Positions 1 through 19,450 are shown, counted from the first letter of the stretch. The stretch is 33,298 bases of DNA from Magnetococcales bacterium DCbin4 (GCA_002753735.1 PEAN01000043.1:1-33298), one strand, 5' to 3'. A program made the numbers and translations. The notes: generated by a model from the letters alone, not told the origin.

Positions 1-2
1 AA

Positions 3-836
3 CCCCGCCCAGAGCCGGGAACGGACACCCCATCCCTTGTTGTGACAAACGTTGTGACGAATGCCGACCCCGGAGCCACACCACCGGCAAAGATTCCCGA
101 CCCGGCGCAACCCAAGCCACCGCCGGATCAAGGTATGGTCGCTCCCGGCACGGGTCGGTCCGTCACCGATGCGGGCAACCCGAAGAAATCCGCAAAATTC
201 CAACCTGCCACCAACAAGAAAACCGCCCGCTTGGTCGTGACCATTCCCTCCAGGGAACCGTCACCCAGCGGACAGACGCAAAAAAAAACAACTGACAATA
301 CACCACGTCCTTCCCCTCCCCTTCGCCCTGGCACCCAACCTGCGTTCCCGACGGTTCAAGAGGTGACCCGTCCACCGACCCCGGACCCCGCACCGGAAGG
401 AAAAGGGATGGGTGGTGCGCCTCCCCTGGAAGCGGTGCGTTTCATGGATGCCATGGAACGCACCGATTGCAAGCCAGGGATGTGGTATGTCCCCGTTGAA
501 GGGTTGGGTATGGGGCTCGCCCATCTGCTGGGTGACGCTGTACAGGGGATTACCACTCTTGGGGGAAAGCGCCTGCCGAAACAACCTCCCGCCATGCCTC
601 CTCCCGCCGCGCCCCATGTCAAACAACGACGTGAAATCGCGGCCAACACCGCCACTTCCGACCTGGAACCGGTCATCGGCAGGATGACCGGAGGGATCCG
701 CGAACTCGTGACGGGTGCCACTCAGATCACGGGAGGGAGCATCGATATCGTGCTGGGAACCTTGGGAACCCTGGGAGGGATCATCGTTCAAACCGCCGGG
801 AGGCTGGGCATCAAAACAGGAAGAACCAGGAGATAA
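3..836 (+). CDS. Pro-rich, Gly-rich C-terminus protein upstream of mamK (5' end probably outside window)
   Basis: I do not recognise a named family. The reading frame is open to the left window edge. The first possible start inside is GTG at 42, but it has no Shine-Dalgarno sequence, so the gene is probably cut by the window. Counted from GTG 42, residues 1-120 are rich in Pro, Thr, Ala and Lys and look disordered. Residues around 150-175 carry a Gly-rich amphipathic segment with the motif VEGLGMG..HLLGD. The last 55 residues are Gly/Leu/Ile-rich with an LG-repeat-like stretch (LGTLGTLGG) and a basic tail (KTGRTRR). It lies 63 bp upstream of mamK on the same strand. That is the place mamJ occupies in Magnetospirillum, and low-complexity MamJ links magnetosomes to MamK. 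I see no sequence similarity to MamJ, so an adaptor role is inference. The hydrophobic Gly/Leu stretch could be a membrane insertion. Its Gly-rich motif recurs in the 96-aa protein on the other side of mamK. Confidence 0.7.
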   Translation, partial: PRPEPGTDTPSLVVTNVVTNADPGATPPAKIPDPAQPKPPPDQGMVAPGTGRSVTDAGNPKKSAKFQPATNKKTARLVVTIPSREPSPSGQTQKKTTDNTPRPSPPLRPGTQPAFPTVQEVTRPPTPDPAPEGKGMGGAPPLEAVRFMDAMERTDCKPGMWYVPVEGLGMGLAHLLGDAVQGITTLGGKRLPKQPPAMPPPAAPHVKQRREIAANTATSDLEPVIGRMTGGIRELVTGATQITGGSIDIVLGTLGTLGGIIVQTAGRLGIKTGRTRR

Positions 837-899
837 TCCGCCCACACTGCAAAAGGAGACGGTGTTTGGGCATGGGCAAACCGATGACAGGGGTAAAGC

Positions 900-1940
900 A
901 TGGAATCATCCGCGCAACAGGGCAGAAACCTTTTTCTGGGCATTGACCTGGGGACTTCAAGAACCACCGTGGTATCCAATCGGGGTACCCGGGAGGCGGT
1001 TCGGTCGGTCGTGGGTTATCCCAAAGACATTATCGGGGTCAAACTGCTCGACCAGACCAGCGTTGTCGGTGAGGAGGCGTTGGACCGTCGATCCTATTTG
1101 AACATCCACTTTCCGCTGGAAGACGGCGTATTGAAAGAGGCCAGCGAAAAAGATACTCAGGCGGCACGGGAATTGATTCAATACGCCATTTCCCTGGCCC
1201 ATCCCCAACCGGGCGACCGGATCTGCGGCATTCTGGGTGTGCCGGCACGGGCCTCGATTTCCAACAAGAATCAACTGCTGCGTATCACCAATGAATTGAT
1301 GCACTTTTCCATGGTGGTTTCCGAACCGTTCATGGTCGCCTATGGCCTCAACAAGCTGACCAACGCCATCATCATCGATATCGGTGCCGGCACCATCGAC
1401 ATTTGCGCCATGCGCGGCACCATTCCCAGTGCCGAAGAACAGGTGACCTTGATGAAGGCGGGTAACCATGTGGACAACTTTTTGACGAGTTTGATCTGCG
1501 AATCCTATCCCAACGTGCAGATGACGACGCTTCTGGCGCAAAAGATCAAGGATCAGTTCGGATTTGTCGGGCAACCGGAACAGGAAATCATCGTCAACCT
1601 GCGCGCCAACGGCAAGCCGCAGCCCCATGAAATCACCCGCGAAGTTCGTGTCGCCTGTGAGGCCATCGTGCCGGACATCATTGAAAACGTCCAACAACTG
1701 ATCACCATCTTCGATCCCGAAAACCAGGAAGAGGTCGTGGGCAATATCATTCTGGCAGGCGGTGGTTCTCGGATGCGGGGCTTGGATCGCGCCCTGACTG
1801 AAAGTTTGCGGGATTATGGCGATGTCCGGATCCATCTGGTGGATGATCCGATCTACGCCGGTTCCCTGGGGGCATTGAAAATGGCCACCGAACTGCCGTT
1901 GGAATATTGGAATCAGGTTGGAGATGTCATCGGAGGATAG
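900..1940 (+). CDS. mamK: MamK, actin-like magnetosome cytoskeletal ATPase
   Basis: MamK polymerises into cytoplasmic filaments that line up and position magnetosome chains. The 346-aa product fits the family along its whole length: phosphate-1 loop LFLGIDLGTSRT at residues 11-22, the family stretch SVVGYPKDIIG near 36-46, GVPARAS near 113-119, the SEPFMVAYGL segment with the catalytic Glu at 142, phosphate-2 loop IIDIGAGTIDI at 158-168, and the adenosine motif IILAGGGSRMRGL near the C-terminus. The end (EYWNQVGDVIGG) resembles the Magnetospirillum MamK end. The ATG is preceded by AGGGG at a good distance. MamK is distinguished from MreB by its length and by the SEPFMV and C-terminal signatures. 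It sits between two small proteins that share a motif and upstream of feoB. Family assignment is firm from pattern recognition. Confidence 0.96.
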   Translation: MESSAQQGRNLFLGIDLGTSRTTVVSNRGTREAVRSVVGYPKDIIGVKLLDQTSVVGEEALDRRSYLNIHFPLEDGVLKEASEKDTQAARELIQYAISLAHPQPGDRICGILGVPARASISNKNQLLRITNELMHFSMVVSEPFMVAYGLNKLTNAIIIDIGAGTIDICAMRGTIPSAEEQVTLMKAGNHVDNFLTSLICESYPNVQMTTLLAQKIKDQFGFVGQPEQEIIVNLRANGKPQPHEITREVRVACEAIVPDIIENVQQLITIFDPENQEEVVGNIILAGGGSRMRGLDRALTESLRDYGDVRIHLVDDPIYAGSLGALKMATELPLEYWNQVGDVIGG

Positions 1941-2117
1941 GACGTAACCATGGTCAAGAAAAATAAAGGATATTAAGTATTATCCAGAGGTGTTCTTTTT
2001 TCTGACCAAATGAGTGGAGTGCAGGTACATGGTGGTTACTGATCGAAGAGAGAATCCTTGGGATGAATCAAAAGAATATTTATTTTCCTTGATCATTTTC
2101 ACGCTGGAGGTCAATTC

Positions 2118-2408
2118 ATGAACGCCAAATCTGCAATTCAACCCACCGAAGAGAGCATCGACATTCCCGTGGAAAACATGGGAACGGGTATTTTCAACAT
2201 GCTGGGCGACATGATTGGCGGATTGGTTGACCTGCACCAGGTTGCCCATGCCAAACTTCGGAAGGGTGTCGCCGTGCTTCAGGATCGATTGAAGGGAAAA
2301 GAAGCTCCTGACGACGACATGATCGAACCGCTGCCGATCGATCCCACCCTCAAATCCATGCCGCATCCTGCCCGAACCCCATCCGAAATGCCGATCGATC
2401 ATCCATAA
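2118..2408 (+). CDS. 96-aa protein with Gly-rich LGD motif, between mamK and feoB
   Basis: I do not recognise a family. The gene has a strong Shine-Dalgarno (CTGGAGG) 9 bases before the ATG, so it is very likely translated. Residues 17-42 form an amphipathic Gly-rich segment (VENMGTG, then NMLGDMIGGLVDL). A helical, basic stretch follows (HAKLRKGVAVLQDRLKGK), then an acidic, Pro-rich tail. The segment VEN-MGTG..MLGD...GL..L aligns with residues around 150-172 of the Pro-rich protein upstream of mamK. It is not long or hydrophobic enough for a certain transmembrane helix, though it may bind membrane. feoB starts 9 bp after its stop, so the two are probably co-transcribed. It is not FeoA: the SH3-like FeoA pattern is absent. 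A role in magnetosome or MamK function is inferred only from position. Confidence 0.75.
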   Translation: MNAKSAIQPTEESIDIPVENMGTGIFNMLGDMIGGLVDLHQVAHAKLRKGVAVLQDRLKGKEAPDDDMIEPLPIDPTLKSMPHPARTPSEMPIDHP

Positions 2409-2417
2409 CGAAACCGC

Positions 2418-4562
2418 ATGCCCGAGCCCACCGTCACAAAAAAAGTCCTGACCGTCGGACTGATCGGCAACCCCAACTGCGGCAAAACGACCCTGTTCAA
2501 CGCCTTGGCCAGGGCCAATGCCCCGGTGGGTAACTATCCCCGGGTGACCGTGGCCATTCAGGATCGTTATTTCGATTTTGCTGGACAGACCATCCGCCTG
2601 GTGGACCTCCCCGGGGTCTATGCCCTGACTTCCAAGAGTCCGGAAGAACGTTGCAGTCGGGAATTCCTGTATTCCGAGGAAGCGGACGTTCTGGTCAATG
2701 TGTTGGACGCCGGCAACCTGGAGCGTTCGTTGTTTTTGACGACGCAACTGTTGGAATTGGGACAACCCCTCGTGTTTGCCATCAACATGATGGATGAAGC
2801 CACGAACCATGGCATCTCCTTCGACCTGGACAGTATTTCCTCGATGCTCCATGGCAAGGTGGTGGGGATCGCCAGCAAGACGGGTCAAGGGATGGGGGAA
2901 CTCATGCAGGCGGTCATCGAAACCAGCCGCATCCCCCACGAACGGATTCGACCCGTCTTCCTGTCCTACGATCCCCACCTGGAACATGCCATCATCAAGG
3001 TGGGCCGTCTGATCCACGATCTCCACCCCAGGGAAATGGATCAGCACCAGGTGCGGTGGCTGGCGATCAAACTCTTGGAAGGAGACGACGAGCTGCTGGC
3101 TCGTGAAGGAGAACACCATCATCTGCTGGAGATGGTGCGACGGACACGATACGACCTGGAACGGGATCATGGCGAATCCTGTGAAATGATGCTGGCCGGT
3201 GCCCGCTATGGATTCATCCATGGCATGAGTGCCGAAGCCATTCACCGCCGCCCCTACGAAGCCCGATTATGGTGGACCGACCGCCTGGATGCAATCCTCC
3301 TGCATCCAACATTGGGAATGCCCGTTTTTTTATGTTTGATGTATCTGCTGTTCGAAACCACCTTTTCGTTGGGGGATTACCCTGCGGAATGGCTCAATCA
3401 AGGGGTACGTGCGATCATCAGCACCGGTCACCACCTGTTGCCGCCGAGTCTGTTGAGTAACCTGGTACTCGAAGGAATCGTGACGGGTGCGGGTGCCGTG
3501 ATCATGTTCCTTCCCTATATATTAATCCTGTTTTTCTTCATCGCCATGTCCATCGAAACCGGCTACATGGCGCGATCCTCGTTTTTGCTGGATCGAATCA
3601 TGCATTTTTTTGGCTTGCATGGCAAAGCGTTCATTCCGTTGGTGATTGGATTCGGGTGCAACGTCCCCGCCATCATGGCATCGCGCACCATTGAAAACCC
3701 TCGTGACCGTCTGGTTGCCATACTGGTGGTCCCCTTCATCTCGTGCGCCCAAAGGTTACCGATTTTCATTCTTTTGATCGGCACCTTTTTCACAGCCCAT
3801 GCCGGAAAGGTCATTCTGCTGCTCTACAGCATCAGTATCGGCTCAGCCATGGTGGCCGCCATCGTGTTGAGCCGGTTCGTCATCCGTTCCACCCCCGTCT
3901 CCACCGTCATGGAACTCCCCCCGCTGCGCATTCCCACCTGGCGTTCCATCGTGCTGCACATGTGGGAGAAGGCATGGGACTTCGTTCGCATGGTCGGCAG
4001 CATCATCATTCTGGGATCGGTGATCATCTGGTACCTGCAATCTTTTCCGATTCATCAGGAAACCCAGACCCGATACGACGCCCGAAAGGCCGAGATCATA
4101 CGCCTGTTCCCCGAGAGCCAGGAGCGGACGACGGCGCTGCAACAACTTGAATTCGACAGCAGGCACCAACAGTTTGAACAAAGTTATCTGGGCCGGATCG
4201 GCAAAGCGATCAGCCCGGTGTTCGCCCCCCTGGGGTTTGACTGGAAAGACAGTGTCGCCATCCTGTCCGGTTTTTTTGCCAAGGAGATCATCGTTGCCAG
4301 TTATGCCTTGCTCTACGTTCCGGGTCATGATCCCGACGGCCAACCCATCACGTTGCAACAATCGATTGCCCGGGAACTGTCTCCGATGAGGGCATTTGTC
4401 TTGATGGTATTTTTCCTGCTTTACGCCCCCTGTCTTTCAACCCTGGCCAGCATCAAGAGGGAAGCTGGATGGAACTGGGCCGTTTTTTCCTTCTGTTTTC
4501 AATTTTCGATCACTTGGTTATTGTCCTATCTCCTCGTCAAAATCTCCCATATTCTTACGTGA
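2418..4562 (+). CDS. feoB: FeoB, ferrous iron transport GTPase/permease
   Basis: FeoB takes up Fe2+ across the inner membrane, using an N-terminal G domain and a C-terminal permease. In this 714-aa product G1 is GNPNCGKT at residues 17-24, G2 lies around PRVTVA, G3 is DLPG at 63-66 and G4 is NMMD at 123-126. A helical linker follows, then the membrane part with the Gate-1 signature GFGCNVPAIMASR, the Gate-2 signature LSGFFAKEIIVASY, and a late PCLSTLAS motif. The length is slightly below the roughly 770 aa of E. coli FeoB, mostly because the C-terminal tail is short. No feoA or feoC lies beside it. It sits in the magnetosome gene cluster between the 96-aa protein and an AGCS transporter, so it probably supplies iron for magnetite. 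Magnetosome-island feoB genes are known in Magnetospirillum; the link here is by context. Confidence 0.96.
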   Translation: MPEPTVTKKVLTVGLIGNPNCGKTTLFNALARANAPVGNYPRVTVAIQDRYFDFAGQTIRLVDLPGVYALTSKSPEERCSREFLYSEEADVLVNVLDAGNLERSLFLTTQLLELGQPLVFAINMMDEATNHGISFDLDSISSMLHGKVVGIASKTGQGMGELMQAVIETSRIPHERIRPVFLSYDPHLEHAIIKVGRLIHDLHPREMDQHQVRWLAIKLLEGDDELLAREGEHHHLLEMVRRTRYDLERDHGESCEMMLAGARYGFIHGMSAEAIHRRPYEARLWWTDRLDAILLHPTLGMPVFLCLMYLLFETTFSLGDYPAEWLNQGVRAIISTGHHLLPPSLLSNLVLEGIVTGAGAVIMFLPYILILFFFIAMSIETGYMARSSFLLDRIMHFFGLHGKAFIPLVIGFGCNVPAIMASRTIENPRDRLVAILVVPFISCAQRLPIFILLIGTFFTAHAGKVILLLYSISIGSAMVAAIVLSRFVIRSTPVSTVMELPPLRIPTWRSIVLHMWEKAWDFVRMVGSIIILGSVIIWYLQSFPIHQETQTRYDARKAEIIRLFPESQERTTALQQLEFDSRHQQFEQSYLGRIGKAISPVFAPLGFDWKDSVAILSGFFAKEIIVASYALLYVPGHDPDGQPITLQQSIARELSPMRAFVLMVFFLLYAPCLSTLASIKREAGWNWAVFSFCFQFSITWLLSYLLVKISHILT

Positions 4563-4629
4563 AGGATTGGGCGTTCGCGCCTGCCCGGAGCAACCCATCC
4601 CTTCTCGGATCACCACGGAACCCAAGTTC

Positions 4630-5946
4630 ATGGATACCATCGCCGCCTGGATCTGGAACCCAATGTTAAGCCTGATCTATATCGAAACGGGCCTGCTGTT
4701 CCTGATTGCGACCCAGGGGCTTTCCCTGCGGTTTCCCCGGAATGTTCTGAGGAAAATATGGAACGTGGAAGAAAAGGGCAACGCCAATCCCCGGCACATC
4801 TCTCATGGAAGGGCATTCAGCGCCGCCCTGGCAGCCAGTGTCGGGGTTGGCAATCTGGCCGGGGTCGGGACCGCCATTCACCTTGGCGGACCCGGGGCCA
4901 TGTTCTGGCTTTGGGTTTCGGCCATCGTCGGCGGTTCCTTTCAAATGTGTTCCGCCTACCTGGCCATTCGCCACGGACCCGGAAAGACCGACTCGCCGCT
5001 GTATGCCACCCCCATGTCCTATATCGTCAAATTCACGGGCCAATCATGGCCGATGACGGCTCCCATTCTTGCGGGTCTGATCCTGTTTCACGGCATGGTC
5101 AGCGCCAACCTGATCCAGGCCAACTCGGTTTCCCGTTCCCTGGCCAATCAGATGGGAACCTCCGATTTCCTGGTGGCCGCCCTGTTGTTCGTCACCGTGG
5201 CCGCCGCCATTATCGGTGGCCTGAAATCCATCATCACCATCAGCTCTTTTCTCGCCCCGTGGTTGGTTTTGCTTTTTGTGGGCAGCGGCCTGTTGGTTCT
5301 TTTTCTCAATCCCCGGGCCACCCTTGAAGCGTTCCAGTTGATCGTCACCTCGGCCTTCCATCCCTATGCCATCGGCGGCGGGATCGCCGGTCATACCGTG
5401 ATGCAGGCGATGCAGTTCGGCGTTTCCAGAGGGGTTTTTTCTCACTTTTCCGGCATGGGGACCGCCCCCTTTCTGCAAAGCTCCAATGACGACCACCCCG
5501 CCGTCAGCGCCTATCTGGCCGCCCTGGTCCCCCTGGTGGATTCGCTGATGGTATGCAGTATCACCGGTCTGGTCGTTCTCGTCACGGGCGATTGGCATCA
5601 ATATACCGGGGCCTACCTGACGGCAACCGCATTTCAAACGGCCCTGGGAGATACAGGTCGCATCGTCGTTTTTATTTGCCTGGTCATCTTTGCCTATACC
5701 ACCATCATCAGTTGGGCCCATTTCGCGGAACGTTGTTTCCAGTATCTGGGAGGACGCCGCGTCATCGTATTTCGCTGGCTTTTTGCCGGTGTCACCTTTT
5801 GTGGTCCATTCATGCCGGTCAACTTCATCTGGTCCCTGGCCGATTGCGTTATCGGCCTGATGCTCTTGTTCCACCTGTTGCCCATGACCTACATCGTCAT
5901 CAAAACGCTTCCGGAACTGCTCAATGACCTGAAAAATAATGATTAA
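4630..5946 (+). CDS. Divergent AGCS-family (sodium/amino-acid symporter-like) membrane protein
   Basis: The product, 438 aa from ATG 4630, is a polytopic membrane protein. It carries the alanine/glycine:cation symporter signature GVGNLAGVGTAIHLGGPGAMFWLWV at residues 72-96 (written here only as a location; key residues GNLAG and GGPG). Family members normally take up Ala or Gly with Na+. The second conserved family block, usually FSNEAG.GSAP, reads FSHFSGMGTAP at 270-280, and the Glu of the block is missing. The block that normally follows the first signature (a FAE-like motif) is also altered (FQMCS). It therefore looks like a diverged paralogue whose substrate may differ. The frame can also start at TTG 4567, 5 bp after the feoB stop; the ATG fits the family N-terminus better. 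Its close spacing to feoB suggests one transcript. An amino-acid carrier inside a magnetosome cluster is unusual. Confidence 0.88.
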   Translation: MDTIAAWIWNPMLSLIYIETGLLFLIATQGLSLRFPRNVLRKIWNVEEKGNANPRHISHGRAFSAALAASVGVGNLAGVGTAIHLGGPGAMFWLWVSAIVGGSFQMCSAYLAIRHGPGKTDSPLYATPMSYIVKFTGQSWPMTAPILAGLILFHGMVSANLIQANSVSRSLANQMGTSDFLVAALLFVTVAAAIIGGLKSIITISSFLAPWLVLLFVGSGLLVLFLNPRATLEAFQLIVTSAFHPYAIGGGIAGHTVMQAMQFGVSRGVFSHFSGMGTAPFLQSSNDDHPAVSAYLAALVPLVDSLMVCSITGLVVLVTGDWHQYTGAYLTATAFQTALGDTGRIVVFICLVIFAYTTIISWAHFAERCFQYLGGRRVIVFRWLFAGVTFCGPFMPVNFIWSLADCVIGLMLLFHLLPMTYIVIKTLPELLNDLKNND

Positions 5947-6306
5947 GAAAAAAATTGGCTCGGAAACGCCCTGTGCGGACCGATAAAAGTCGTAGCATTG
6001 ACTCTATTTTAATTCTTGTTAAAGTCGCTCATGATTATTGATCGGAAAAACGGTCGCTGTTTGTTTTTGACCTTGTTGTTTCAGGTCAATATTAATGCAC
6101 TTTTGATTTAGAGATGGAATGATTCAACTGTCAGTGATGGCCGGCAAAACCCCTGCTTGGAACAAAAGGTGATCAGGGTGTTGATTTTTTGCCCTTGCAG
6201 GGGGCATCATGTTCAAGAAAACCGGGGAGGCTCCTGACATGGTTTATTTGTTTGCTGTCGTGCGATTCGAACCTGAAACACAAACGGCAGGGAGTGAACT
6301 GGCGGT
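5947..6306. other. 360-bp intergenic region ahead of mamI
   Basis: No convincing gene lies here. The stretch is more AT-rich than the genes on either side and contains the promoter and inverted repeat described separately. An inverted pair CCCCTGC / GCAGGGG (near 6155 and 6200) is separated by about 40 bases and could fold in RNA, but there is no U-tract. The length and AT content suggest that the mamI-mamA-mamQ block has its own transcription start. Confidence 0.5.
6067..6095 (+). promoter_or_regulatory. Predicted sigma70-type promoter with inverted repeat upstream of mamI
   Basis: A -35 element TTGACC (6067-6072) and a -10 element TATTAA (6090-6095) are separated by exactly 17 bases. The spacer region holds a perfect 7-bp inverted repeat, TTGACCT (6067-6073) and AGGTCAA (6083-6089), with a 9-base gap. 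A protein bound there would cover the promoter, so it could be an operator. The mamI start is about 210 bp downstream. The promoter match is seen directly; regulation is inference. Confidence 0.5.
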
Positions 6307-6573
6307 ATGGCCAACATCATTTTCGGGCTGATTGCCCTTGCCCTTGGCATTTGGAGCCTTTCCGTCTGGTGGTGGTCGGTGGTGGAACTGCTGCGTGGGA
6401 TCGTTCCATTGTTCCTGATCATGCTCGGGTTCATCGCCCTGGGGGCGGGGATCATCAGGATGAGTGACGAAGAGCGTGGGGTGGAAACGGTCGATCTTGA
6501 CGAAAATTCAGGTGAGCAACCCGTTTTCAGGGACGAATCGATGGACGATACCCCCCGGTCCGCCCAATCGTGA
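6307..6573 (+). CDS. mamI: MamI, magnetosome membrane protein
   Basis: MamI is a small inner-membrane protein needed for magnetosome membrane invagination or early magnetite formation in Magnetospirillum. The 88-aa product begins MANIIFGLIALALGIWSL and has two membrane segments, about residues 4-22 and 32-50. They flank the WWWSVVELLRG loop, which is the family hallmark. The tail after residue 53 is acidic (DLDENSGEQ, DESMDD) and longer than in Magnetospirillum MamI (about 70-77 aa as I recall). A GGGAG Shine-Dalgarno lies about 11 bases before the ATG. It is the first gene after the promoter region and is followed by mamA. In Magnetospirillum mamI lies near mamE, so its position beside mamA is a rearrangement. 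Confidence 0.88.
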   Translation: MANIIFGLIALALGIWSLSVWWWSVVELLRGIVPLFLIMLGFIALGAGIIRMSDEERGVETVDLDENSGEQPVFRDESMDDTPRSAQS

Positions 6574-6646
6574 ATACACGAAGGGTTGGGGTGGATGGGT
6601 GTGGCGTGGTGAATGCAGTGGGATTGCCTGATAAGGAAGATGCCTG

Positions 6647-7309
6647 ATGAAATCCGAGTACCGCAGCCCGAATCCCCTTTCCGAGGTCGGTTTTTTTGTT
6701 CATGCCGCTCTGTATGTGATCAAACGGGCCTATATTTCCGCCACGGAAGGGTTCAACAATTTTTTTTCGGTAAATGATGAATTGCGTGGGCGGTACTACC
6801 GACAACGTGGGGTGGAGCATACCCGCCGCGGGCGCTATGGACTTGCCGTTTCCCTGTTGGAACAGACCCTTGAAGCATTGCCGCAGGACGAGGAAACCCT
6901 GTTTCATCTCGGTTTTTGTCATCTGAAACTGGATCGGCCACTTGAGGCCATCAAGGTATTGGAGCGTGCTCTGGTTTTGGGTTACGGTGGTGTCCGGGTT
7001 CGCTCCATTCTGGGGATGGCCTTTTTGCAGACTCATGAATATGACAAGGCGGTACAGGCATTGGAACCGGCCCTGGTGGAGGATCCACATAATTTTCACC
7101 TCAACTATCGGATGGCACAGGCATTGGACCATCTGAAGGTGTACGACCGTGCGTTGGTTTGTTTCAGGAATGCTGCGGCGGTGCGTCCAGATGATCCGAA
7201 GGTTTATCGTTTCATGGGGGTGACGCTGGAACAGATGGGACGGCACGAGGAGTCAGTGGTGCAGTTCAGAAAGGCGGCGAGCCTTGAGGAAGGATTCCGG
7301 AGCGAATGA
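6647..7309 (+). CDS. mamA: MamA, TPR scaffold protein of the magnetosome surface
   Basis: MamA coats the cytosolic face of magnetosomes as an assembly of tetratricopeptide repeats and helps activate them. The product is 220 aa, close to the 217 aa of Magnetospirillum MamA. The N-terminal segment resembles the family (ALYVIKRAYISATEGFNNFFSVNDELRGRYYRQRG). About five TPR units follow, for example GRYGLAVSLLEQTLEALP, RPLEAIKVLERALVLG, HEYDKAVQALEPALVEDP, KVYDRALVCFRNAAAVRP and GRHEESVVQFRKAASLE. An AAGGAAG Shine-Dalgarno precedes the ATG. It is followed after 52 bp by mamQ, the same order (A then Q) as in Magnetospirillum. Confidence 0.93.
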   Translation: MKSEYRSPNPLSEVGFFVHAALYVIKRAYISATEGFNNFFSVNDELRGRYYRQRGVEHTRRGRYGLAVSLLEQTLEALPQDEETLFHLGFCHLKLDRPLEAIKVLERALVLGYGGVRVRSILGMAFLQTHEYDKAVQALEPALVEDPHNFHLNYRMAQALDHLKVYDRALVCFRNAAAVRPDDPKVYRFMGVTLEQMGRHEESVVQFRKAASLEEGFRSE

Positions 7310-7342
7310 AGCAAACCGTGACTGGAAAAAGCAAACCGTGAC
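7309..7342 (+). repeat. 14-bp tandem direct repeat between mamA and mamQ
   Basis: AAGCAAACCGTGAC occurs at 7309-7322 and again at 7329-7342, a 20-base period with 6 bases between copies. The first copy starts at the last base of the mamA stop codon and the second ends 19 bases before the mamQ start. It may be a slippage duplication; I see no certain function. Confidence 0.7.
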
Positions 7343-7361
7343 AGGGAAGAGTTGAAGGATC

Positions 7362-8243
7362 GTGGCCGATCATCCCACATACCCATCATTGGAAGAATCC
7401 CGGGAAAATCATTCGGAGCGTCAGCGCCGGATGAAACGGTTGTTGCATCAGCTTTATGAGCATGAGATCGTTGCCGGTCCCCCTGGGACTTCCCGGTTCA
7501 ATGCCAAGGGGTTGATCGCTTCGGTGATCATCGTCTTCATCGTCGTTTTTGGTATCACCACGCTATACAACTTCAATATATTCATTACCCTTGAGGAACG
7601 GGTCTTTGAAGCCAAGGGGCATATCGACGATACGTTGCAACGACGGTCCAACCTTTTTACCAATCTGATCAACCTGACGCTCAACCAGTCCGCCCTGGAA
7701 CAGGAAGTGTTCCGACATGTCGCCGATGTCCGGGTCGACTTGATGCGGCGTGATACTTCCAGTACCACCCCTTCGGCAGATGCTTCTTCCGAGGTGGTTG
7801 CTGCCGGAGCGGAAGGGGGGGCGGACCAGGCCAGACATTTTGCGGATGCGGTGGCCGGGGTGGAGGGTTCTTCGCTGGCCAAGCTTCTGGCGGTTGTGGA
7901 GCATTATCCTGAAATCAAATCGTCAGCGACCTATCAACAGTTGATGGATCAACTGGTGGAAATTGAAGATCGCATCATCACCAAGCGGGATCTGTTTAAC
8001 GATGAGGTACGGGTCTACAATACCCTGATCACCTCGTTTCCCTGGTATATCCTGGCAAGAATCACCGGTTTCAAACGACACGAATATTATTCCCTCGATC
8101 TCATGGCCAAAAGCGACCATTGGATGCAGCCCGGTTCCGCTGCCGCTCCATTCCATCGTCTGCTTCCTCTGGATTCGGATCATGGGCAAACCCGGGCAAC
8201 CGGTGGCCACGCGGGGACGACGGGGGAAGCACGTCAACAATAA
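7362..8243 (+). CDS. mamQ: MamQ, LemA-like magnetosome membrane protein
   Basis: MamQ is a LemA-family inner-membrane protein required for magnetosome membrane formation in Magnetospirillum. The 293-aa product has a cytoplasmic N-terminus, one membrane helix at about 48-68 (IASVIIVFIVVFGITTL) and then the LemA-type helical domain. The family stretches VFEAKGHIDDTLQRRSNL, TNLINLTLNQSALEQEV and EIEDRI...YNTLITSFPWYILARITGFKRHEYY are all present. The variable low-complexity loop at about 125-160 is Ala/Gly/Glu-rich. The start is GTG with GAAGG a few bases upstream. A Gly/Thr/His-rich tail follows the family end (AAPFHRLLPL). It is the last magnetosome gene on this side; mamB, which follows mamQ and mamR in Magnetospirillum, is absent. 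Confidence 0.94.
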   Translation: MADHPTYPSLEESRENHSERQRRMKRLLHQLYEHEIVAGPPGTSRFNAKGLIASVIIVFIVVFGITTLYNFNIFITLEERVFEAKGHIDDTLQRRSNLFTNLINLTLNQSALEQEVFRHVADVRVDLMRRDTSSTTPSADASSEVVAAGAEGGADQARHFADAVAGVEGSSLAKLLAVVEHYPEIKSSATYQQLMDQLVEIEDRIITKRDLFNDEVRVYNTLITSFPWYILARITGFKRHEYYSLDLMAKSDHWMQPGSAAAPFHRLLPLDSDHGQTRATGGHAGTTGEARQQ

Positions 8244-8289
8244 TCCGTTAAATAAAAAAGTTGATTAAGATTGTTCATATAATAGTTTT

Positions 8290-8442
8290 TGCATGTTTAT
8301 TGATCTGGTGAACCCAAAGGCTTTGATATCGACGTTGGGATCTTCTCCGGCCTGAACGCGCAAAACGGCGCGGATCCGAAATTCCTCCAGCATCTGGTGG
8401 TCCAGTTTTCTCCCTGTCGAACTCACTCAGGGAGGAGTCCAT
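8290..8442 (-). pseudogene. Decayed N-terminal fragment of an IS630-like transposase
   Basis: Read on the - strand from ATG 8442, the frame gives MDSSLSEFDREK. It then needs removal of one A in an AAAA run (near 8406-8409) to continue LDHQMLEEFRIRAVLRVQAG and EDPNVDIKAFGFTRS. That is the helix-turn-helix N-terminus typical of IS630-family transposases (pattern LEE.RIRAV.RVQAGE.P.VVIKA.GF.R). After TRS the similarity stops and a stop codon follows within about 10 codons. It is thus frameshifted and truncated, with the rest of the element gone. The remaining sequence between mamQ and the cyclase gene (8244-8289 and 8443-8591) shows nothing else I can name. The remnant marks the right border of the magnetosome genes. 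Confidence 0.6.
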
Positions 8443-8591
8443 CACAAGCAGATTACTGATGCACAGATTTGCAGAACACGATCAAAATACCCCAACGACA
8501 TTCAAGATCATGCTCTGGAAAAACGATGAAGGATGACCATCCGACTTTTTTTCTCAATCATGAAATCAATACCCCTGAACATGATACGCGA

Positions 8592-10436
8592 TCAACCCTG
8601 ATCGACGATGGACCGGGCAACACAGACCCGGTCACGGCCATGATTTTTGGCCTCGTAAAGGGCAAGGTCGGCGCGTTGTATGGCCAGATCCAAAGGTTCT
8701 TGAACCTGTCGGAACGCAATGCCGCAACTGATCGTCACCCGTTCGCCAACCATGGCCCCGGTAAAAACGAGTTGCCGCACCCGTTCCAGGATGCGTTCCG
8801 TCAACCCCACCATACCCGGTCGGTCATCCCCGATGAGAAACACAATGAACTCCTCGCCCCCCATGCGGACCGGCACATCCTCGCTACGAACATTTTCCAG
8901 TAACACCTTGGCAACCCGTTTCAGCACCACATCCCCTTCCGGATGGCCAAAGGTATCGTTGATGCGCTTGAAATGATCGATATCGAAGGCTGCCACAGCC
9001 AATCCGGACTGGTGGTTGCGGTCATGCAGATCGCAAAGACGGATAACGGCATCACGCATGTAGAACCGTGTATAAAGGCCGGTCAACTGATCACGGGTGG
9101 AAATCTGATAAAACCGCTCCCGTTCCTGATTCATGGCGTGAAAGATCAACTCTCGTTCCACCGCGACACCCAATGGAACCCCCAGCTGTTCCAGGATATG
9201 TTGCGTCTCCGCATCAGGCCCCGCCGAACTTGCAAGTCCCAGGACCGCCACAGCGTTGACCTGGTGTCGCTCTGGAGAAAAAAGTGGAATCACCAGTTCG
9301 CTCACCACCGCCGATTCCAGTTCACCCACCCTCTTCAACGTCGACAGCAACAAGATCGGTGTGAGCGATCCCCGCCAACCTTCGCCATCCAAATTCAAGA
9401 AAGCCCGGTATTCCGCCGGCGGTTGGGCCACCACCGCCCCCCGGTAATGGGTCTCCGGTCCCAGACGAACCACCTGACCACCAAGCGAACCAAAGAAGAC
9501 CAGGCTTCGGACCGGCATGATCGGGGCAACCGAATCCAACAGCCCCCGAACCACCTCGGAAAAATCGCGACTCAGGACCATCCGCTCCATCGATTGGCGC
9601 AACAACTTGTTCAATTCCACCAGCCGCTGCACGTCGGTATGGGTGCGCGTCATGAGAAAGATTCCGCAATCCAACTCCTTGAGACGAGAAAAAACGAATG
9701 AAATCAGCTTCTCTCCAAGAATGCTGCCATGTTGGGGCGCAATCAGCCGCACGGGGAGCTGTTCCAGTTTCAACAATCCATGCAGGAGGATCTCCCGGCT
9801 GGGCATGTAGTGTTCATGAAAGGCGCGGATCCCTTCCAGAACGGTCGTATCCTTGGCAAAAAGCTGTGTCGTTTCGGTAAACCCACCAAACAAATCACTG
9901 GAAAAAAGGGTACCGCTGTCGGTGTCGAACGTGCAAAATGCGCCAGGGGAATGGAGATAAGGGGTAAAAACAAACCGCAGCAAACGATTCCCCACCCGCA
10001 GTTCCCAATCATTGGCTTCGATGCATAACAGGGGCAGACGCAAGGCATAGTGTTTCAGCAGGGCATTGATGCGCCAATGACTGACCACCACCGCATCTTC
10101 GCGGCACACCAGTTCATCCATCCGAGGCAGCACCCCGGTGATGTCGGGATCCTGATGCTGACAGATGAAATAACGGATATGGTTGAAAGGAATCACCTGT
10201 TCAATCTTGCGCAACACCTCCGGGAACAACAATACCGAACCCGGATCAATCAATACCGATTGATCCCCCTGTTCGATCAGGTACACATGACATTGAAACG
10301 GATCCCCCTCCATGAGGGCACCCACCCACCAAATCCTGGAGGCGATTTCGATGGGTTCAGCCAGGGAACCTGTGCCAAAGACGATTTCAGAAATCGAATC
10401 TGTTTGCGCGTCAATCATCTCATCACCGGCAGTCAT
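8592..10436 (-). CDS. Diguanylate cyclase with ODP-type (diiron MBL-fold) sensor, possible GAF, and GGDEF domain
   Basis: The 614-aa protein has three parts. Residues 20-260 are a metallo-beta-lactamase fold like the oxygen-binding diiron proteins (ODP, flavodiiron relatives). The metal-ligand pattern is H94-x-D96-x-D98, H162, D181 and H236 (contexts CQHQDPDIT, YLHSPG, FSSDLFGG, APQHGS). Residues 270-430 form a linker and probable GAF-like domain. Residues 440-610 form a GGDEF domain. It has an active-site GGEEF at 526-530 and an RxxD inhibitory I-site (RSED, 517-520) five residues before it, so it should make c-di-GMP with product feedback. I infer that it senses O2 or a related ligand through the diiron site. 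It is transcribed away from the glycan genes and toward mamQ. In a microaerophilic magnetotactic cell it could link oxygen to motility or attachment. No membrane segments are seen. Confidence 0.85.
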   Translation of the reverse strand: MTAGDEMIDAQTDSISEIVFGTGSLAEPIEIASRIWWVGALMEGDPFQCHVYLIEQGDQSVLIDPGSVLLFPEVLRKIEQVIPFNHIRYFICQHQDPDITGVLPRMDELVCREDAVVVSHWRINALLKHYALRLPLLCIEANDWELRVGNRLLRFVFTPYLHSPGAFCTFDTDSGTLFSSDLFGGFTETTQLFAKDTTVLEGIRAFHEHYMPSREILLHGLLKLEQLPVRLIAPQHGSILGEKLISFVFSRLKELDCGIFLMTRTHTDVQRLVELNKLLRQSMERMVLSRDFSEVVRGLLDSVAPIMPVRSLVFFGSLGGQVVRLGPETHYRGAVVAQPPAEYRAFLNLDGEGWRGSLTPILLLSTLKRVGELESAVVSELVIPLFSPERHQVNAVAVLGLASSAGPDAETQHILEQLGVPLGVAVERELIFHAMNQERERFYQISTRDQLTGLYTRFYMRDAVIRLCDLHDRNHQSGLAVAAFDIDHFKRINDTFGHPEGDVVLKRVAKVLLENVRSEDVPVRMGGEEFIVFLIGDDRPGMVGLTERILERVRQLVFTGAMVGERVTISCGIAFRQVQEPLDLAIQRADLALYEAKNHGRDRVCVARSIVDQG

Positions 10437-10595: not shown

Positions 10596-11651
10596 TCAGT
10601 CCCCTTCATTGGAGTGATCCAAAATCCAGGCAATCGTTTGCCGCAAACCCGAGTCCAGATCAATCCGGGGACGGAAGTCCAGTTGATCGCGAATTTTTGA
10701 TGCATCCAAGGCATAACGCCAATCATGACCCGGACGGTCTGAAACAAACGTGATCAATGCGTCCGATGTTCGGCCCTGTGAACGCGCAGCCCGGGGAAAA
10801 CGGACGGCCAACCGTCGATCCTGATCAAAGCATTCATCCAACAAATATCCAAGTCGGCGTACCAATGCTATATTGGAAGATTCCTCCTGAGCACTGATAT
10901 TATAGGTCGATCCCGCACTTCCCCGTTCCAAGATCAACGCAATCCCCTGGCAATGGTCTTCCACATACAACCAATCCCGGATATTGCTGCCATCACCATA
11001 AATTGGAACCGCCTTTGCCCGCAACATGTTTCCCAATGTCAAAGGAATCAGTTTTTCGGGGAACTGCATCGGACCGTAGTTGTTTGAACAGTAGCTGATC
11101 GTCGTCTGCAATCCGTAGGTTACATGATAGGCCCGAACCAAATGGTCCGAAGCGGCCTTACTGGCAGCGTAGGGCGAGTTGGGTCGATAAGGCGCCGATT
11201 CGTTGACCGCCGGTTCGGACGGCCCCAGAGAACCATACACCTCATCGGTGGAAACATGATGAAACCGATGCGGAACAGGGCCGCCGGATGCGGCATTCAA
11301 CCATACCTCCCTGGCCGCCATGAGCAGACTATGTGTCCCACTAATGTTTGTTTCCACAAAGACTTGCGGTGTCTGAATGGATCGGTCCACATGGCTTTCG
11401 GCGGCAAAATGGACGATTTTGTCCAGTTTTTCCTGCCGCAACAGATCGATGACCAATTGGCAATCCAGGATGGAGCCATGAACAAAACGGAACCAAGGCT
11501 GGCGAATCACCGGTGCCAGATTGGCAAGATTTCCGGCATAGCGAAGGGCATCAAGCACGACAACCAAATCTTCGGGATGATGGCGGTGCCAATAGGGCAC
11601 AAAGTTGGCACCAATAAATCCAGCCCCCCCTGTTACCAATAATCCGCTCAT
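10596..11651 (-). CDS. rfbB: dTDP-glucose 4,6-dehydratase
   Basis: Converts dTDP-glucose to dTDP-4-keto-6-deoxyglucose, the branch point to rhamnose and many amino-deoxy sugars. The 351-aa product is full length for RfbB/RmlB. It has the NAD-binding GGAGFIG at residues 8-14, AAESHVDRS around 83-91, the catalytic T-D-E at 135-137, YxxxK at 161-165 (YAASK) and NNYGP around 197. rfbA lies 25 bp upstream on the same strand. rfbC and rfbD, needed for rhamnose, are not in the window. A DegT-type aminotransferase is nearby, so a dTDP-amino-deoxyhexose is a likely alternative product. The C-terminal part (RTSDALITFVSDRPGHDWRY) matches the family. Confidence 0.96.
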   Translation of the reverse strand: MSGLLVTGGAGFIGANFVPYWHRHHPEDLVVVLDALRYAGNLANLAPVIRQPWFRFVHGSILDCQLVIDLLRQEKLDKIVHFAAESHVDRSIQTPQVFVETNISGTHSLLMAAREVWLNAASGGPVPHRFHHVSTDEVYGSLGPSEPAVNESAPYRPNSPYAASKAASDHLVRAYHVTYGLQTTISYCSNNYGPMQFPEKLIPLTLGNMLRAKAVPIYGDGSNIRDWLYVEDHCQGIALILERGSAGSTYNISAQEESSNIALVRRLGYLLDECFDQDRRLAVRFPRAARSQGRTSDALITFVSDRPGHDWRYALDASKIRDQLDFRPRIDLDSGLRQTIAWILDHSNEGD

Positions 11652-11676
11652 GATGCACCACAGGGAACAAGATTGG

Positions 11677-12564
11677 TCATGACGCCCCTTCCTCTTCCAA
11701 TATTTGCATCAGGTAGCGGCCATAGGAGACCTTCAACAAATGTTGGGCAATCCGGAACAGTTGTTCCGCATTGATGTAGCCCAAACGAAAAGCAATTTCT
11801 TCCGGGCATGCGACCATCAGCCCCTGTCGCGACTGGATTGTGTGAATGAACTGGGAGGCGGAAAGAAGATTATCATAGCTGCCGGTGTCCAACCATGCGT
11901 TGCCACGGCCCAGTATTTCCACATGCAACCGTCCTTGTTGCAAATAGATATTGTTGACATCCGTGATTTCCAATTCACCCCGAGCCGATTGCCGTATTTT
12001 TTTTGCAACCTCGATCACATGGCGATCATAGAAATAAAGCCCGGTGACCGCAAAACGGGAACGGGGTCGGACAGGTTTTTCCTCGATGCTCTCCACTTTT
12101 CCGTCCTGGGTGAACGTTACAACCCCATACTCTTCGGGTCGATCCACGGGGTAGGCAAAAATGGTGGCCCCTTCGATACGGGCATGCGCCTGATCCAGAA
12201 GGGAACGAAGCGCACTACCATAGAAAATATTATCCCCGAGGATCAAAGCACAGGGATCTGAACCTATGAACGATTGTCCTAGGAGGAATGCCTGGGCAAC
12301 CCCCGCTGGGGCAAGTTGTTCGCAATAGCTGAAAGAAAGACCCCAATCGGATCCATCGCCCAGGAGACGCTTGAAATTTGGCAGATCCACCGGGGTTGAA
12401 ATGATCAGAATATCGCGGATACCCGCAAGCATGAGTACCGATAAAGGATAAAAAATCATCGGTTTATCATAGATTGGCAACAATTGTTTACTGATACCGC
12501 GGGTGATGGGATATAAACGGACTGCCGACCCACCGGCTAATATGATCCCTTTACGGTGACTCAA
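11677..12564 (-). CDS. rfbA: Glucose-1-phosphate thymidylyltransferase, altered signature motif
   Basis: Makes dTDP-glucose from glucose-1-phosphate and dTTP, feeding RfbB. I chose the TTG at 12564 as start: GGAG lies 8 bases before it, and the product then begins MSHRKGIILAGG, as is usual for RmlA. A frame continues up to 12618 but adds a tail absent from the family. The 295-aa length is normal. Family blocks are present: SKQLLPIYDKPMIFYPLS, LAGIRDILIISTP, LILGDNIFYG (metal Asp), EEKP, VTGLYFYD, RGELEITDVN and WLDTGSYD (second metal Asp). The nucleotide-binding signature, normally GGSGTRL, reads GGSAVRL at residues 11-17, so the Gly and Thr that contact dTTP phosphates are replaced. Whether the enzyme is fully active is open. 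The gene pairs with rfbB immediately downstream. Confidence 0.92.
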   Translation of the reverse strand: MSHRKGIILAGGSAVRLYPITRGISKQLLPIYDKPMIFYPLSVLMLAGIRDILIISTPVDLPNFKRLLGDGSDWGLSFSYCEQLAPAGVAQAFLLGQSFIGSDPCALILGDNIFYGSALRSLLDQAHARIEGATIFAYPVDRPEEYGVVTFTQDGKVESIEEKPVRPRSRFAVTGLYFYDRHVIEVAKKIRQSARGELEITDVNNIYLQQGRLHVEILGRGNAWLDTGSYDNLLSASQFIHTIQSRQGLMVACPEEIAFRLGYINAEQLFRIAQHLLKVSYGRYLMQILEEEGAS

Positions 12565-12636
12565 GGCGTTGACTCCAAAGTTGAAATCAGGAACGTGAAT
12601 GAAAACGGCGTCTCCCAAGGTGGATCAAAAGGTATG

Positions 12637-12851
12637 ATTCCATTTCTAAATCAAAAGTTTATTAACATTGACTTGAAAATACAAAGCCAAAAACTTGAGC
12701 ATGGAAACCTTCTTGTTTAAATTCAAAAAAAAAACCAATACCCTGGGGGCAATCCCTTAAGCCCCTTTTTTTCTTTCAATAATTTGTTGAATGTCAATAC
12801 GCCCGAGAAAATCTGCCACTCAAAAATGTCCTTTTGATATGGAAATGGAAT
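12637..12851 (+). mobile_element. MITE-like element, copy 1 (215 bp, about 21-bp terminal inverted repeats)
   Basis: The left end at 12637-12657 begins ATTCCATTTC and ends ATCAAAAG. The right end at 12831-12851 is its inverted complement except at two positions. The whole unit matches the second copy at 17620-17828 in the same orientation, with many point differences and small indels. No transposase is inside. Short open frames on both strands begin IPF..QK only because of the inverted ends. I see no clear target-site duplication. It lies between rfbA and the aminotransferase and starts 4 bases after the aminotransferase stop codon, in the opposite reading sense. Confidence 0.7.
12745..12772 (+). 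terminator. Terminator-like hairpin inside MITE copy 1
   Basis: GGGGC (12746-12750) can pair with GCCCC (12761-12765) around a 10-base loop, followed by a run of 7 T. It would act on + strand transcripts. No + strand gene lies just upstream, so it is probably a property of the repeat. Copy 2 has a similar TGGGG/CCCCA hairpin near 17723-17738 with a broken T-run. Confidence 0.45.
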
Positions 12852-12858
12852 TAAATCT

Positions 12859-14067
12859 TCATCGTAACGCAAGCAATACTGAATCATCGCGGCTCCAATT
12901 GCGCACGACATCGGCGCGGTTTTGGATGGCATGAATCAAATCGCAGATCATCTTGACATCGTGCTCTGGATCAACAAGATTGACCGGCAGACACAAAATT
13001 TTTTCACCGATGGCTTCAGTCACGGGAAGTTCATGATGCAGATGGGGATACAGACTGTTATATGGCTCCATGCGATGACAGCCCGGGTAAAAATAACGGC
13101 GACAAAAGCAGTTCTCCAACCATAGCGCAGCACATAACTGATCTCTCGACAGACCGAAAGAATCATCAACCAGACACACCGCATATTGATGTGAATGCAT
13201 CTGACCCGGGGGAGCGGTCAGCATGCGGATACCGGAAATGGTGTTCAGGTGTTCGTGATACAGATGATGCACCCACTTCAATCTGACAATACGTTGTTCA
13301 AGAACGGAAAACGAGGCCAACCCCAATGCCGCTCCCGCTTCAGACATTTTGGCGTTGATTCCGATGGAACCGGTCCGATCCGTCCCATGAACACCGAAGC
13401 TGCGTAATTTCCTGAGTTCACGCGCCAAATCATTGTCATTGGTCAGGATCCCCCCCCCTTCAAAGGTGCTGAAAAATTTGGTGGCGTGGAAACTTAAAAA
13501 TTCCGCCCTTCCGAAACCACCCACCGCAACACCCTCCAAGGAACTGCCAAACGCGTGCGCCGCATCGAACAGGAGTTCCAGACCATGGGTTTGACAAATT
13601 CGTTGAAGTCCCTGGACATCGCAGATGGAGCCGAATACATGCACGCCGATGATGGCAGAGGTATCGGATGTGACCTTTTTGGCGACATGATCGCAGTCCA
13701 AGGTCAACGTTTGCGGATGGATATCACAAAATACAGGTCTCAATCCGTTCCAATGGACCGCATGGGCCGTCGCAATGAACGTGAATGATGGCAAAATGAC
13801 CTCACCCTTGATTCCAAGTGCGTTTAGCAACAGAATCTGCGCCATGGTACCGTTGCTCACAGCGATACACTGTTCGACCTGATGCAGAGTACGTACCCGT
13901 TCCTCAAAAGCTTGAACGCATGGACCATCGTTCGTCAAAATGGCACGATCAAACACCTCGTCCATGATCCGGTGAAAACTGGAACGTACTTCCCCTTCCA
14001 GGTAGGGTATTCCGACATGAAGCGGTTTGGAGAAGGCGGGATGGCCCGTTTCAATCGCGATTTTCAT
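12859..14067 (-). CDS. DegT/DnrJ/EryC1/StrS-family sugar aminotransferase
   Basis: PLP-dependent transaminase that adds an amino group to a nucleotide-linked keto sugar, or a related cyclitol. The start is taken at ATG 14067, which has GGGAAG just before it and overlaps the end of the YfhO gene by 17 bp. The frame is open 38 codons further, but that would run deep into the neighbour. The 402-aa product shows PSFTFIATAHAV...PVFCDI, the PLP-contacting Asp in FDAAHAFGS (D168) and the Schiff-base Lys in FHATKFFSTFEGG (K197). A Gly/His-rich C-terminal part with YFYPGCHRMEPY is typical of the family. With rfbA and rfbB in the same strand order, a dTDP-4-keto-6-deoxyhexose is the likely substrate, but 3- versus 4-amination cannot be told. 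Confidence 0.9.
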   Translation of the reverse strand: MKIAIETGHPAFSKPLHVGIPYLEGEVRSSFHRIMDEVFDRAILTNDGPCVQAFEERVRTLHQVEQCIAVSNGTMAQILLLNALGIKGEVILPSFTFIATAHAVHWNGLRPVFCDIHPQTLTLDCDHVAKKVTSDTSAIIGVHVFGSICDVQGLQRICQTHGLELLFDAAHAFGSSLEGVAVGGFGRAEFLSFHATKFFSTFEGGGILTNDNDLARELRKLRSFGVHGTDRTGSIGINAKMSEAGAALGLASFSVLEQRIVRLKWVHHLYHEHLNTISGIRMLTAPPGQMHSHQYAVCLVDDSFGLSRDQLCAALWLENCFCRRYFYPGCHRMEPYNSLYPHLHHELPVTEAIGEKILCLPVNLVDPEHDVKMICDLIHAIQNRADVVRNWSRDDSVLLALR

Positions 14068-16447: not shown

Positions 16448-16500
16448 TGAGCGTGTCCATAGAAATGACTTGATTTAATATTAATCAAGAACAGTGAATA

Positions 16501-17499
16501 TTAATCAGTCTGAAACCCAATGTCGGAGTAATAACAATCTTTGCATGCAGGGATCCGTTCACGTTGATTGTTGATGTGCAGTTCCATAATATTTTTCAAC
16601 TCATTGCCATGAAACGCAGTAATCAATGAATGTTCCAGAAGATTTCCAATGATCAAATTTTTTTGAACCGCACCCACATAGCAACATGGGTAGATTTTTC
16701 CCTGCCAATTGATCGCAACGGTCGTCCATGCCCATTCACAGATTCCAGTTGTGGGCGTCAGGAGATCGGAAACGATATGGTCATCCACCGTTTTATCGTC
16801 CCTGCTGTCCTGGGCATCTCTGACATGAAAACAAAGATCCATTGCAGAAAAAAATGTACGCGCAGGTTCCACTTCATGTGCATTATGGGGCAATTTGAGA
16901 TAGTCAATGATGACGAGTGTACTTGCATTTTTTTCACGAATCGTCGCCAGTAATGCGTTCACGTTGGCAATGACGCGCCGGATGTTACCACCACGATGAT
17001 ACTGCACATAGGTTTCCTGCGTAATTCCACTGATGGAAATCTTAATAATGTCAAGTCCGGATTCGACCAGTGCAAGACTGTTACGGGGGGTCAGGGCCAT
17101 CCCATTGGTCGCAATCATGCAGCCGATGCCGTTATCCGACAATATTCGGATCATATTCCGCGTCTTGCTGTGCAAAAGCGGCTCACCCATCCAGTACAGG
17201 GCAACCAGAAGACAATGTTTTTTGATTCCTGGAATGATGTTCGAAAACAGATCCTCGGTCATGAACCCAGTCTGATCATGATACATCAAGTCTCTGGTAT
17301 TTCGGCATCCGACACAGGAAACATTACATTGATCAGTCGGTTCAATAAAGACAAAGGTCGGAAAATAACGGGGTGGAACCCATTTCAGCGTGTAATATGT
17401 CTTATTTCTAATGAAATTAAATATTTTCGCGAACGACAATTTACCGTTATTAAATAATGCAATAAGCATGTTGATCTTATGGCAGAATATTTTCCTCAC
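16501..17499 (-). CDS. Radical SAM protein with SPASM-like C-terminus, in glycan cluster
   Basis: Radical S-adenosylmethionine enzymes use a 4Fe-4S cluster to start radical chemistry. With GTG 17499 as start (GGAG 6 bases upstream), the CX3CX2C cluster motif is at C58, C62 and C65 (QCNVSCVGC). It is followed by the family elements YWMGEPLLH, ATNGMAL and IIKISISG. The C-terminal region has more Cys (GICEWAW, IYPCCYVG, ACKDCYYS) fitting a SPASM/Twitch auxiliary cluster. TTG 17511 and ATG 17469 are alternative starts. Relatives include peptide-maturation and sugar or cyclitol enzymes; the substrate is unknown. It lies between YfhO and MITE copy 2, all on the - strand. A second radical SAM protein occurs at 24888. 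Confidence 0.9.
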   Translation of the reverse strand: MRKIFCHKINMLIALFNNGKLSFAKIFNFIRNKTYYTLKWVPPRYFPTFVFIEPTDQCNVSCVGCRNTRDLMYHDQTGFMTEDLFSNIIPGIKKHCLLVALYWMGEPLLHSKTRNMIRILSDNGIGCMIATNGMALTPRNSLALVESGLDIIKISISGITQETYVQYHRGGNIRRVIANVNALLATIREKNASTLVIIDYLKLPHNAHEVEPARTFFSAMDLCFHVRDAQDSRDDKTVDDHIVSDLLTPTTGICEWAWTTVAINWQGKIYPCCYVGAVQKNLIIGNLLEHSLITAFHGNELKNIMELHINNQRERIPACKDCYYSDIGFQTD

Positions 17500-17619
17500 C
17501 CGCAGCTCCAAAAAAATAAGCCGATGATTCAGACGTCAATGACACCCCTTCAACTCTGTTATTTATATTCACAATATCCAGAATCTTGGCAGGTTGTTCC
17601 AGATGAATACGTTGATATT

Positions 17620-17828
17620 ATTCCATTTCTAAATCAAAAGTGCATTAATTTTTACTTGAAAAAACAAAGTAAAGAACTTGAGCATGGAAACCTTTTTGTT
17701 TAAATTAAAAGGAATCAACACCCTTGGGGCAATCCCCCAGACCCCTTTCCTCTTTCAATAATTTTTGAATGTCAATCCGCCCGAGAATTCTGCCACTCAA
17801 AAATGTCCTTTTGATATGGAAATGGAAT
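17620..17828 (+). mobile_element. MITE-like element, copy 2 (209 bp)
   Basis: The left inverted repeat at 17620-17640 and right inverted repeat at 17808-17828 match in 19 of 21 positions as reverse complements, and both are the same as in copy 1. Immediately outside TTCC...GGAA both flanks read TTA, a possible 3-bp target duplication. Copy 1 does not show it, so this may be chance. Together with copy 1 it brackets the aminotransferase, YfhO and radical SAM genes (about 4.8 kb) as a direct repeat. The 435 bases between the radical SAM and methyltransferase genes hold this element, the remnant to its right and 108 bases of no recognised content to its left. Confidence 0.7.
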
Positions 17829-18639: not shown

Positions 18640-18668
18640 TCCCTTATTGACAACCTCCCAACATGAAA

Positions 18669-19415: not shown

Positions 19416-19450
19416 ATCAATAAAAGATTTGAGCTGGATATCGAATACGT

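Follow-up and report, generated by a model that had tools for sequence, protein, structure and literature searches.

The magnetosome genes at the left end of the window probably represent a second, satellite magnetosome cluster, which is built around an old mamK2 module and resides in a cell with a full main island; we propose linker roles for two of its products and a dependence on its mamQ. The window is the whole stretch of DNA analysed (33,298 nucleotides) and corresponds to the entire contig C28 of a Magnetococcales MAG of 4.52 Mb in 148 contigs (96% complete, contamination estimate 0.4%). The left boundary of the window hence reflects a break in the assembly. Genes in the window were called with NCBIfam and Pfam profiles, and Zor-like genes with PADLOC profiles. 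The comparison set comprised 48 Magnetococcales genomes, and 251 other Pseudomonadota were used for motif specificity. The genus of the window's species is referred to as g1, and the Magnetococcales family that also bears mamK2 as f6.

The initial annotation had placed mamK, feoB, an AGCS carrier gene, mamI, mamA, and mamQ in this region, and all six are confirmed at their positions on the plus strand. It had overlooked two further plus-strand genes on either side of mamK, namely wSP and a long gene of which the 3' half lies at the start of the window. The latter, wHP0 (3-836), was recognized by homology and a motif HMM; its product, represented in the window by the C-terminal part, is long, rich in Pro, and probably disordered. 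The gene is followed by mamK2 (900-1940), which encodes a second MamK-family actin exceeding the curated cutoff (NF040964, 511 bits versus 400), and by wSP (2118-2408), which encodes a 96-residue protein with the MamK-neighbour motif and was identified by its conservation after mamK2 and by the motif HMM. The intact feoB (2418-4562; TIGR00437, 534 bits versus cutoff 316) specifies a protein with the GTPase and core motifs, and the adjoining gene specifies an AGCS-family (sodium:alanine symporter) carrier (4630-5946; TIGR00835, 309 bits versus cutoff 273; PF01235). The reading frame of the carrier opens at 4567, and alignments with homologues begin at residue ~21, which makes 4630 the probable start. 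The string is completed by second copies of mamI (6307-6573; NF040963, 84.3 bits versus cutoff 80) and mamA (6647-7309; NF040959, 188.7 bits, just under the cutoff of 200) and by an island-type mamQ (7362-8243; NF040966, about 235 bits (234-235), just under the cutoff of 250). MamA and MamQ, slightly under their cutoffs, nevertheless fall within the MamA and MamQ clades of sister islands, and the island MamQs of sister species score 248, likewise under 250. The right end of the cluster is marked by a minus-strand gene (8592-10436) for a protein combining an ODP-type metallo-beta-lactamase fold with GGDEF (PF19583, PF00990), possibly an oxygen/NO-sensing diguanylate cyclase. Beyond it lies a minus-strand polysaccharide/sugar-nucleotide block (10596-20878) with genes for a dehydratase, a nucleotidyl transferase, a DegT aminotransferase, YfhO, a SPASM radical SAM protein, and WbqC.

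The intergenic gaps along the string are, in order, 63, 177, 9, 67, 360, 73, and 52 bp. The 360-bp gap (5947-6306, plus strand) is by far the longest, contains a promoter-like match at 5998-6025, and likely separates two transcription units. Promoter- and terminator-like sites across the region are not above chance. These sites and the gap sizes do not establish co-transcription of the string, whose genes may be co-expressed. The same gene string was found in no other of the 48 Magnetococcales genomes, which bears out the claim of an unusual order.

The absence of mamB, mamM, mamE, mamO, and mamL from the window had been noted correctly; mamP is absent as well, and the window has no complete mamAB operon. 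These genes sit on C32 (115 kb), which carries mamH, mamI, mamE, mamK1, mamF, mamL, mamM, mamO, mamP, mamA, a TPR gene of ~1000 codons, mamB, and mamS in the order of the sister species. The window is thus a second cluster, a partial set of mam paralogues outside the complete main island of the same genome. On C32, MamH, MamI, MamK, MamM, MamO, MamP, MamA, MamB, and MamS are backed by NCBIfam profiles, with MamO, MamP, and MamS a little under their cutoffs, and the labels of mamE, mamF, and mamL come from sequence comparison and position only. The first copies of mamI and mamA are at C32:18189-18419 and C32:26523-27182. The window MamI, MamA, and MamQ nest within same-genus clades (SH-aLRT 89, 99, and 93, respectively). 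Hence, the duplicates derive from the host lineage's own genes, and a foreign origin of the mamI-mamA-mamQ block was rejected. Both copies of mamI and of mamA appear accelerated, which we do not ascribe to duplication, as the single-copy mamL and mamP have also diverged more.

The two clusters differ in the fate of mamQ. In six same-genus MAGs (G041, G042, G043, G045, G046, and G047; the examined stretch of G046 ends after mamQ), mamQ lies between the ~1000-residue TPR gene and mamB, whereas on C32 the TPR gene runs directly into mamB. A tblastn search with three MamQs found no mamQ remnant on the examined part of C32 and matched only a LemA-like gene elsewhere. Concealment of mamQ by an assembly gap was rejected, as Ns occur only at C32:11440-11497 and none are near the junction. 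A whole-genome search for MamQ matches yields the window protein (about 235 bits), a protein at C1:39551 (195 bits), and the LemA-like protein (79 bits). The protein on C1 is a diverged paralogue, present in other genus members besides their island mamQ; its gene (L053:9375-10253; also L092 and L099) is found genus-wide outside islands in an unrelated-looking conserved gene string. The window mamQ is therefore the only island-type mamQ in the assembly. Most simply, the main operon lost its mamQ, and the gene survives in the satellite cluster. As the main operon is without mamQ, magnetosome membrane formation probably relies on the window copy; the C1 paralogue could supply MamQ function as well.

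In the MamK tree, the window protein belongs to a MamK2 clade of five g1 and six f6 sequences that is separate from all main-island MamKs. It is 95-96% identical to the MamK2 of four same-genus MAGs (nHA5abin3, HA3dbin1, C5_bin.1, and nWRX3bin6), 74-78% identical to those of f6, and 65% identical to MamK1 of its own genome. Comparisons within the genus give dS values of about 1 or more, against a dN of about 0.02. An identity of up to 96% at such a dS reflects strong purifying selection, and recent horizontal transfer of mamK2, which the identity had prompted us to consider, was rejected. Judged by tree and substitution rates, mamK2 is an old, strongly constrained paralogue. Its surroundings are conserved too. 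Specifically, wSP directly follows mamK2 in loci L001-L004, L057, and L059, and the protein encoded upstream of mamK2 in L001 and L003 is homologous to wHP0 (42-43% over 116-218 residues). In L003, the locus of the sister species G043, wSP is followed by feoB as in the window; in L057, the locus of G012, the order is mamK2, wSP, a small gene, a TPR gene, and the AGCS gene. The core module conserved over at least two families comprises a ZorA/ZorB-like pair, a TPR/SPOR protein gene, wHP0, mamK2, and wSP. Family f6 also has another type of satellite, mamI-mamE-mamK-mamL-(mamM)-mamQ (L073, L074, and L075), besides its main island and mamK2 module. What multiple mamK copies do is a matter of debate (PMC9840458, PMC12791574, PMC6783814). 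In these cocci, multi-copy MamKs of less than ~67% similarity correlate with aggregates or with chains that are twisted or partial (PMC9840458), although strain HHB-1 speaks against a simple relation of this kind (PMC12791574).

wHP0 and wSP share a motif of ~25 residues with the unnamed protein encoded between mamE and mamK across Magnetococcales, including that of MC-1 and other families. An HMM built from ten mamE-mamK proteins only detects the motif in genome-wide searches at 483-566 in wHP0 (E 1.5e-7) and at 2154-2231 in wSP (E 8.3e-11). These are exactly the two matches in the window's genome, one on each side of mamK2 and none at mamK1. The HMM matches 44 of the 48 Magnetococcales genomes and one of the 251 other Pseudomonadota, the latter at a chance-like E of 0.004. 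Of the 74 matches, 58 are found no more than 700 bp from a mamK, in a zone making up about 0.1% of the sequence. Conversely, a motif neighbour accompanies 49 of the 81 mamK genes; the other 32 include the main mamK1 of g1. Many of the long motif proteins end in a Gly-rich hydrophobic stretch, as seen by eye and unscored. AlphaFold predicts wSP as a single helix (residues 18-60); at a mean pLDDT of 65, the confidence is modest and does not suffice for a fold search. The motif is mamK-linked and Magnetococcales-specific, and the proteins bearing it are candidate MamK linkers. From its position, it may act as a MamK-interaction or membrane-anchoring element. Two close motif matches with no mamK between them, resembling orphan linker pairs, are present in three f6 genomes (G011:C199:42262-42867, G009:C113:8349-9023, and G010:C48:45478-46145).

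The initial annotation had proposed looking for the missing mam genes to the left of the window, but they are not there. Searching with a gene upstream of wHP0 in G043 located the left neighbour, C116, whose right end holds an open-ended wHP0 gene in the same orientation, comprising the N-terminal half (C116:11691-13007). C116 hence ends within a gene of the same kind as the one truncated at the start of the window. Upstream of this half are genes for a TPR and SPOR protein, a ZorB-like protein, and a 2096-residue ZorA-like protein; the Zor-like genes span C116 (L119) 2392-9796. The ZorA-like protein matches PADLOC ZorA1 over residues 29-237 (E 8e-25), and the ZorB-like protein matches ZorB1 (E 1e-18). 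The acidic residue of the predicted transmembrane segment is Glu in all 13 aligned ZorB-like proteins. Both genes also precede wHP0-mamK2 in f6 genomes (L058-L062). In the closed 4,719,581-bp genome (L096 and L120), which we take to be Magnetococcus marinus MC-1, ZorA/ZorB-like genes (L096:1-4104 and L120:13054-13914) directly follow the gene after mamS, which occupies the mamT position, and the same holds for G039 and G040; further such genes are in L121 and L122. In MC-1 relatives, the pair is linked to the end of the mamAB operon. The gene for a 1420-residue protein with a C-terminal PilZ domain (L120:7684-11946) is a conserved neighbour of the ZorB-like gene among these relatives. Order-wide, 33 of 77 ZorA-like matches lie within 20 kb of a mamK or mamQ, a zone of about 1.7% of the sequence; this count ignores shared ancestry, and six of the near matches were profile seeds. 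ZorA and ZorB of type I Zorya constitute an anti-phage motor. No ZorC or ZorD (or ZorE) was seen among the scanned C116 neighbours or downstream of the MC-1 ZorB-like gene. The pair on C116 lies upstream of wHP0-mamK2 and is linked to mamK, not to the defence effectors of Zorya. In the literature collection searched, no report combined Zorya with magnetosome, and a search for TolQ/MotA with magnetosome gave nothing relevant among the matches listed. The 'EH signature, MotB, apolipoprotein' genes adjoining the UR-1 island (PMC6783814) may be related to these ZorAB-like genes.

The idea that iron uptake is built into the operon finds weak support. In its favour, feoB also follows mamK2 in one sister species, G043 (75% identical), whose FeoB is sister to the window FeoB. 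On the other side, the window FeoB falls outside the clade of MC-1-family island FeoB (G039 and G040), to which the FeoB encoded on C139 of the same genome is nearer. The window feoB has no feoA beside it, its neighbours being wSP and the AGCS gene, and the FeoB relatives examined outside G000, G043, and G006 are away from mam genes. A search of the genome for VIT1 as another iron transporter found none. The window AGCS gene is the only close copy in the genome and is placed among same-genus genes, sister to that of G043; it represents the usual copy of the genus at a new location. In several other same-genus MAGs, the AGCS gene is not beside mam genes, and its neighbour is presumably trpB-like, the product starting like TrpB. 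The gene is within the island in MC-1, G039, G040, G005, and G006, and must therefore have moved, one way or the other. AGCS genes in the islands of IT-1 and MC-1 have been published (PMC3934378). FeoB and AGCS may possibly take part in magnetosome formation or biomineralization.

Under the satellite-cluster reading, MamK2 would form a filament of its own, and wHP0 and wSP would link it via their common motif to magnetosomes or the membrane, like MamJ in Magnetospirillum. In the window's species, the mamK2 module would have gained feoB (common to one sister species), the AGCS gene, extra mamI and mamA, and mamQ. A bolder extension, which we regard as tentative and rather doubtful, is a motor-coupled second magnetoskeleton of Magnetococcales, in which an ion-driven membrane complex of the MotAB/ZorAB type, bearing a giant cytoplasmic tail, would be coupled via the motif-bearing linkers to a dedicated MamK2 filament that might move or anchor magnetosomes; in this species, the module might also have taken over part of organelle building through mamI, mamA, and the only island-type mamQ.

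Three other explanations have to be weighed against the satellite cluster. The locus might be a decaying remnant of a duplicated mam operon, functionless today. Magnetotactic bacteria with partial mam duplicates have been described (PMC9840458, PMC6819731), and the window mamI, mamA, and mamQ are on longer branches than the sister-species genes. However, the C32 copies of mamI and mamA have diverged about as far, all frames are intact, and neither the very strong purifying selection on mamK2 nor the residence of the only island-type mamQ here fits decay, which makes this explanation unlikely. A binning artefact, in which C28 came from a related co-occurring cell and the genome's own mamQ was misassembled on C32, would be in keeping with the draft state of the MAG and its many contigs. 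The assignment of C28, C32, and C116 to one genome is based on trees, shared gene halves, and complementarity. C28 and C116 hold two halves of one kind of gene, proteins of C28 and C32 are both nearest or near-nearest to those of G043, contamination is estimated to be low, and the TPR gene runs contiguously into mamB; an artefact is hence quite unlikely.

The initial annotation had itself offered a third explanation, namely that feoB and AGCS had been inserted, as a unit for iron uptake, into a main operon that was rearranged. The order is indeed unusual, and both genes do reside within other Magnetococcales islands (PMC3934378). Nevertheless, the complete island on C32 has its own mamI, mamK, and mamA, and the window FeoB lacks both feoA and the island-clade affiliation, so that a rearranged operon is very improbable. 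The initial interpretation as a whole is partly supported.

The satellite cluster provides concrete candidates for magnetosome arrangement in magnetotactic cocci without MamJ or MamY. One is the short motif that MamK-neighbour proteins have in common in most families of the order, and the other is the pair of ZorAB-like motor genes, associated with both mamK2 and the island of the cultured MC-1. It also illustrates that mamQ is able to leave the main operon and persist in a satellite cluster, so a core gene can be recorded as missing in error when surveys are confined to main clusters.

The layout is a variant of already known duplicate magnetosome clusters. The magnetosome islet of Magnetospirillum AMB-1 holds an incomplete additional set of mam paralogues away from the main island. 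The same applies to the mamAB-2 remnants (PMC9840458). Both have a gene set other than that of the window, and loss of mamQ from the main island is a feature of the window's genome. Another case is 'Ca. Magnetaquicoccus inordinatus' UR-1 (PMC6783814), also of Magnetococcales, where a second mamK lies off the main island on a contig of its own and feoB1 adjoins an extra, stray mamB; no mamI-mamA-mamQ block or loss of main-island mamQ is reported for it, and the surroundings of its second mamK are not described as a module. AGCS and feoB also reside in the Magnetofaba australis IT-1 and MC-1 islands (PMC3934378), but there AGCS is near mmsF and feoB is with feoA, whereas in the window both lie between mamK2 and mamI without feoA. 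As for the linker candidates, wHP0 and wSP flank mamK2 and are thus encoded beside mamK as MamJ is; the likeness is one of gene position, and mamJ is reported only in Magnetospirillum (PMC9840458). Compared by position, the maq1 gene of 'Ca. Magnetaquicoccaceae' (PMC6783814) occupies the same place adjoining mamK. It is described as family-specific, whereas the motif found here joins the mamE-mamK proteins order-wide with the two proteins flanking mamK2.
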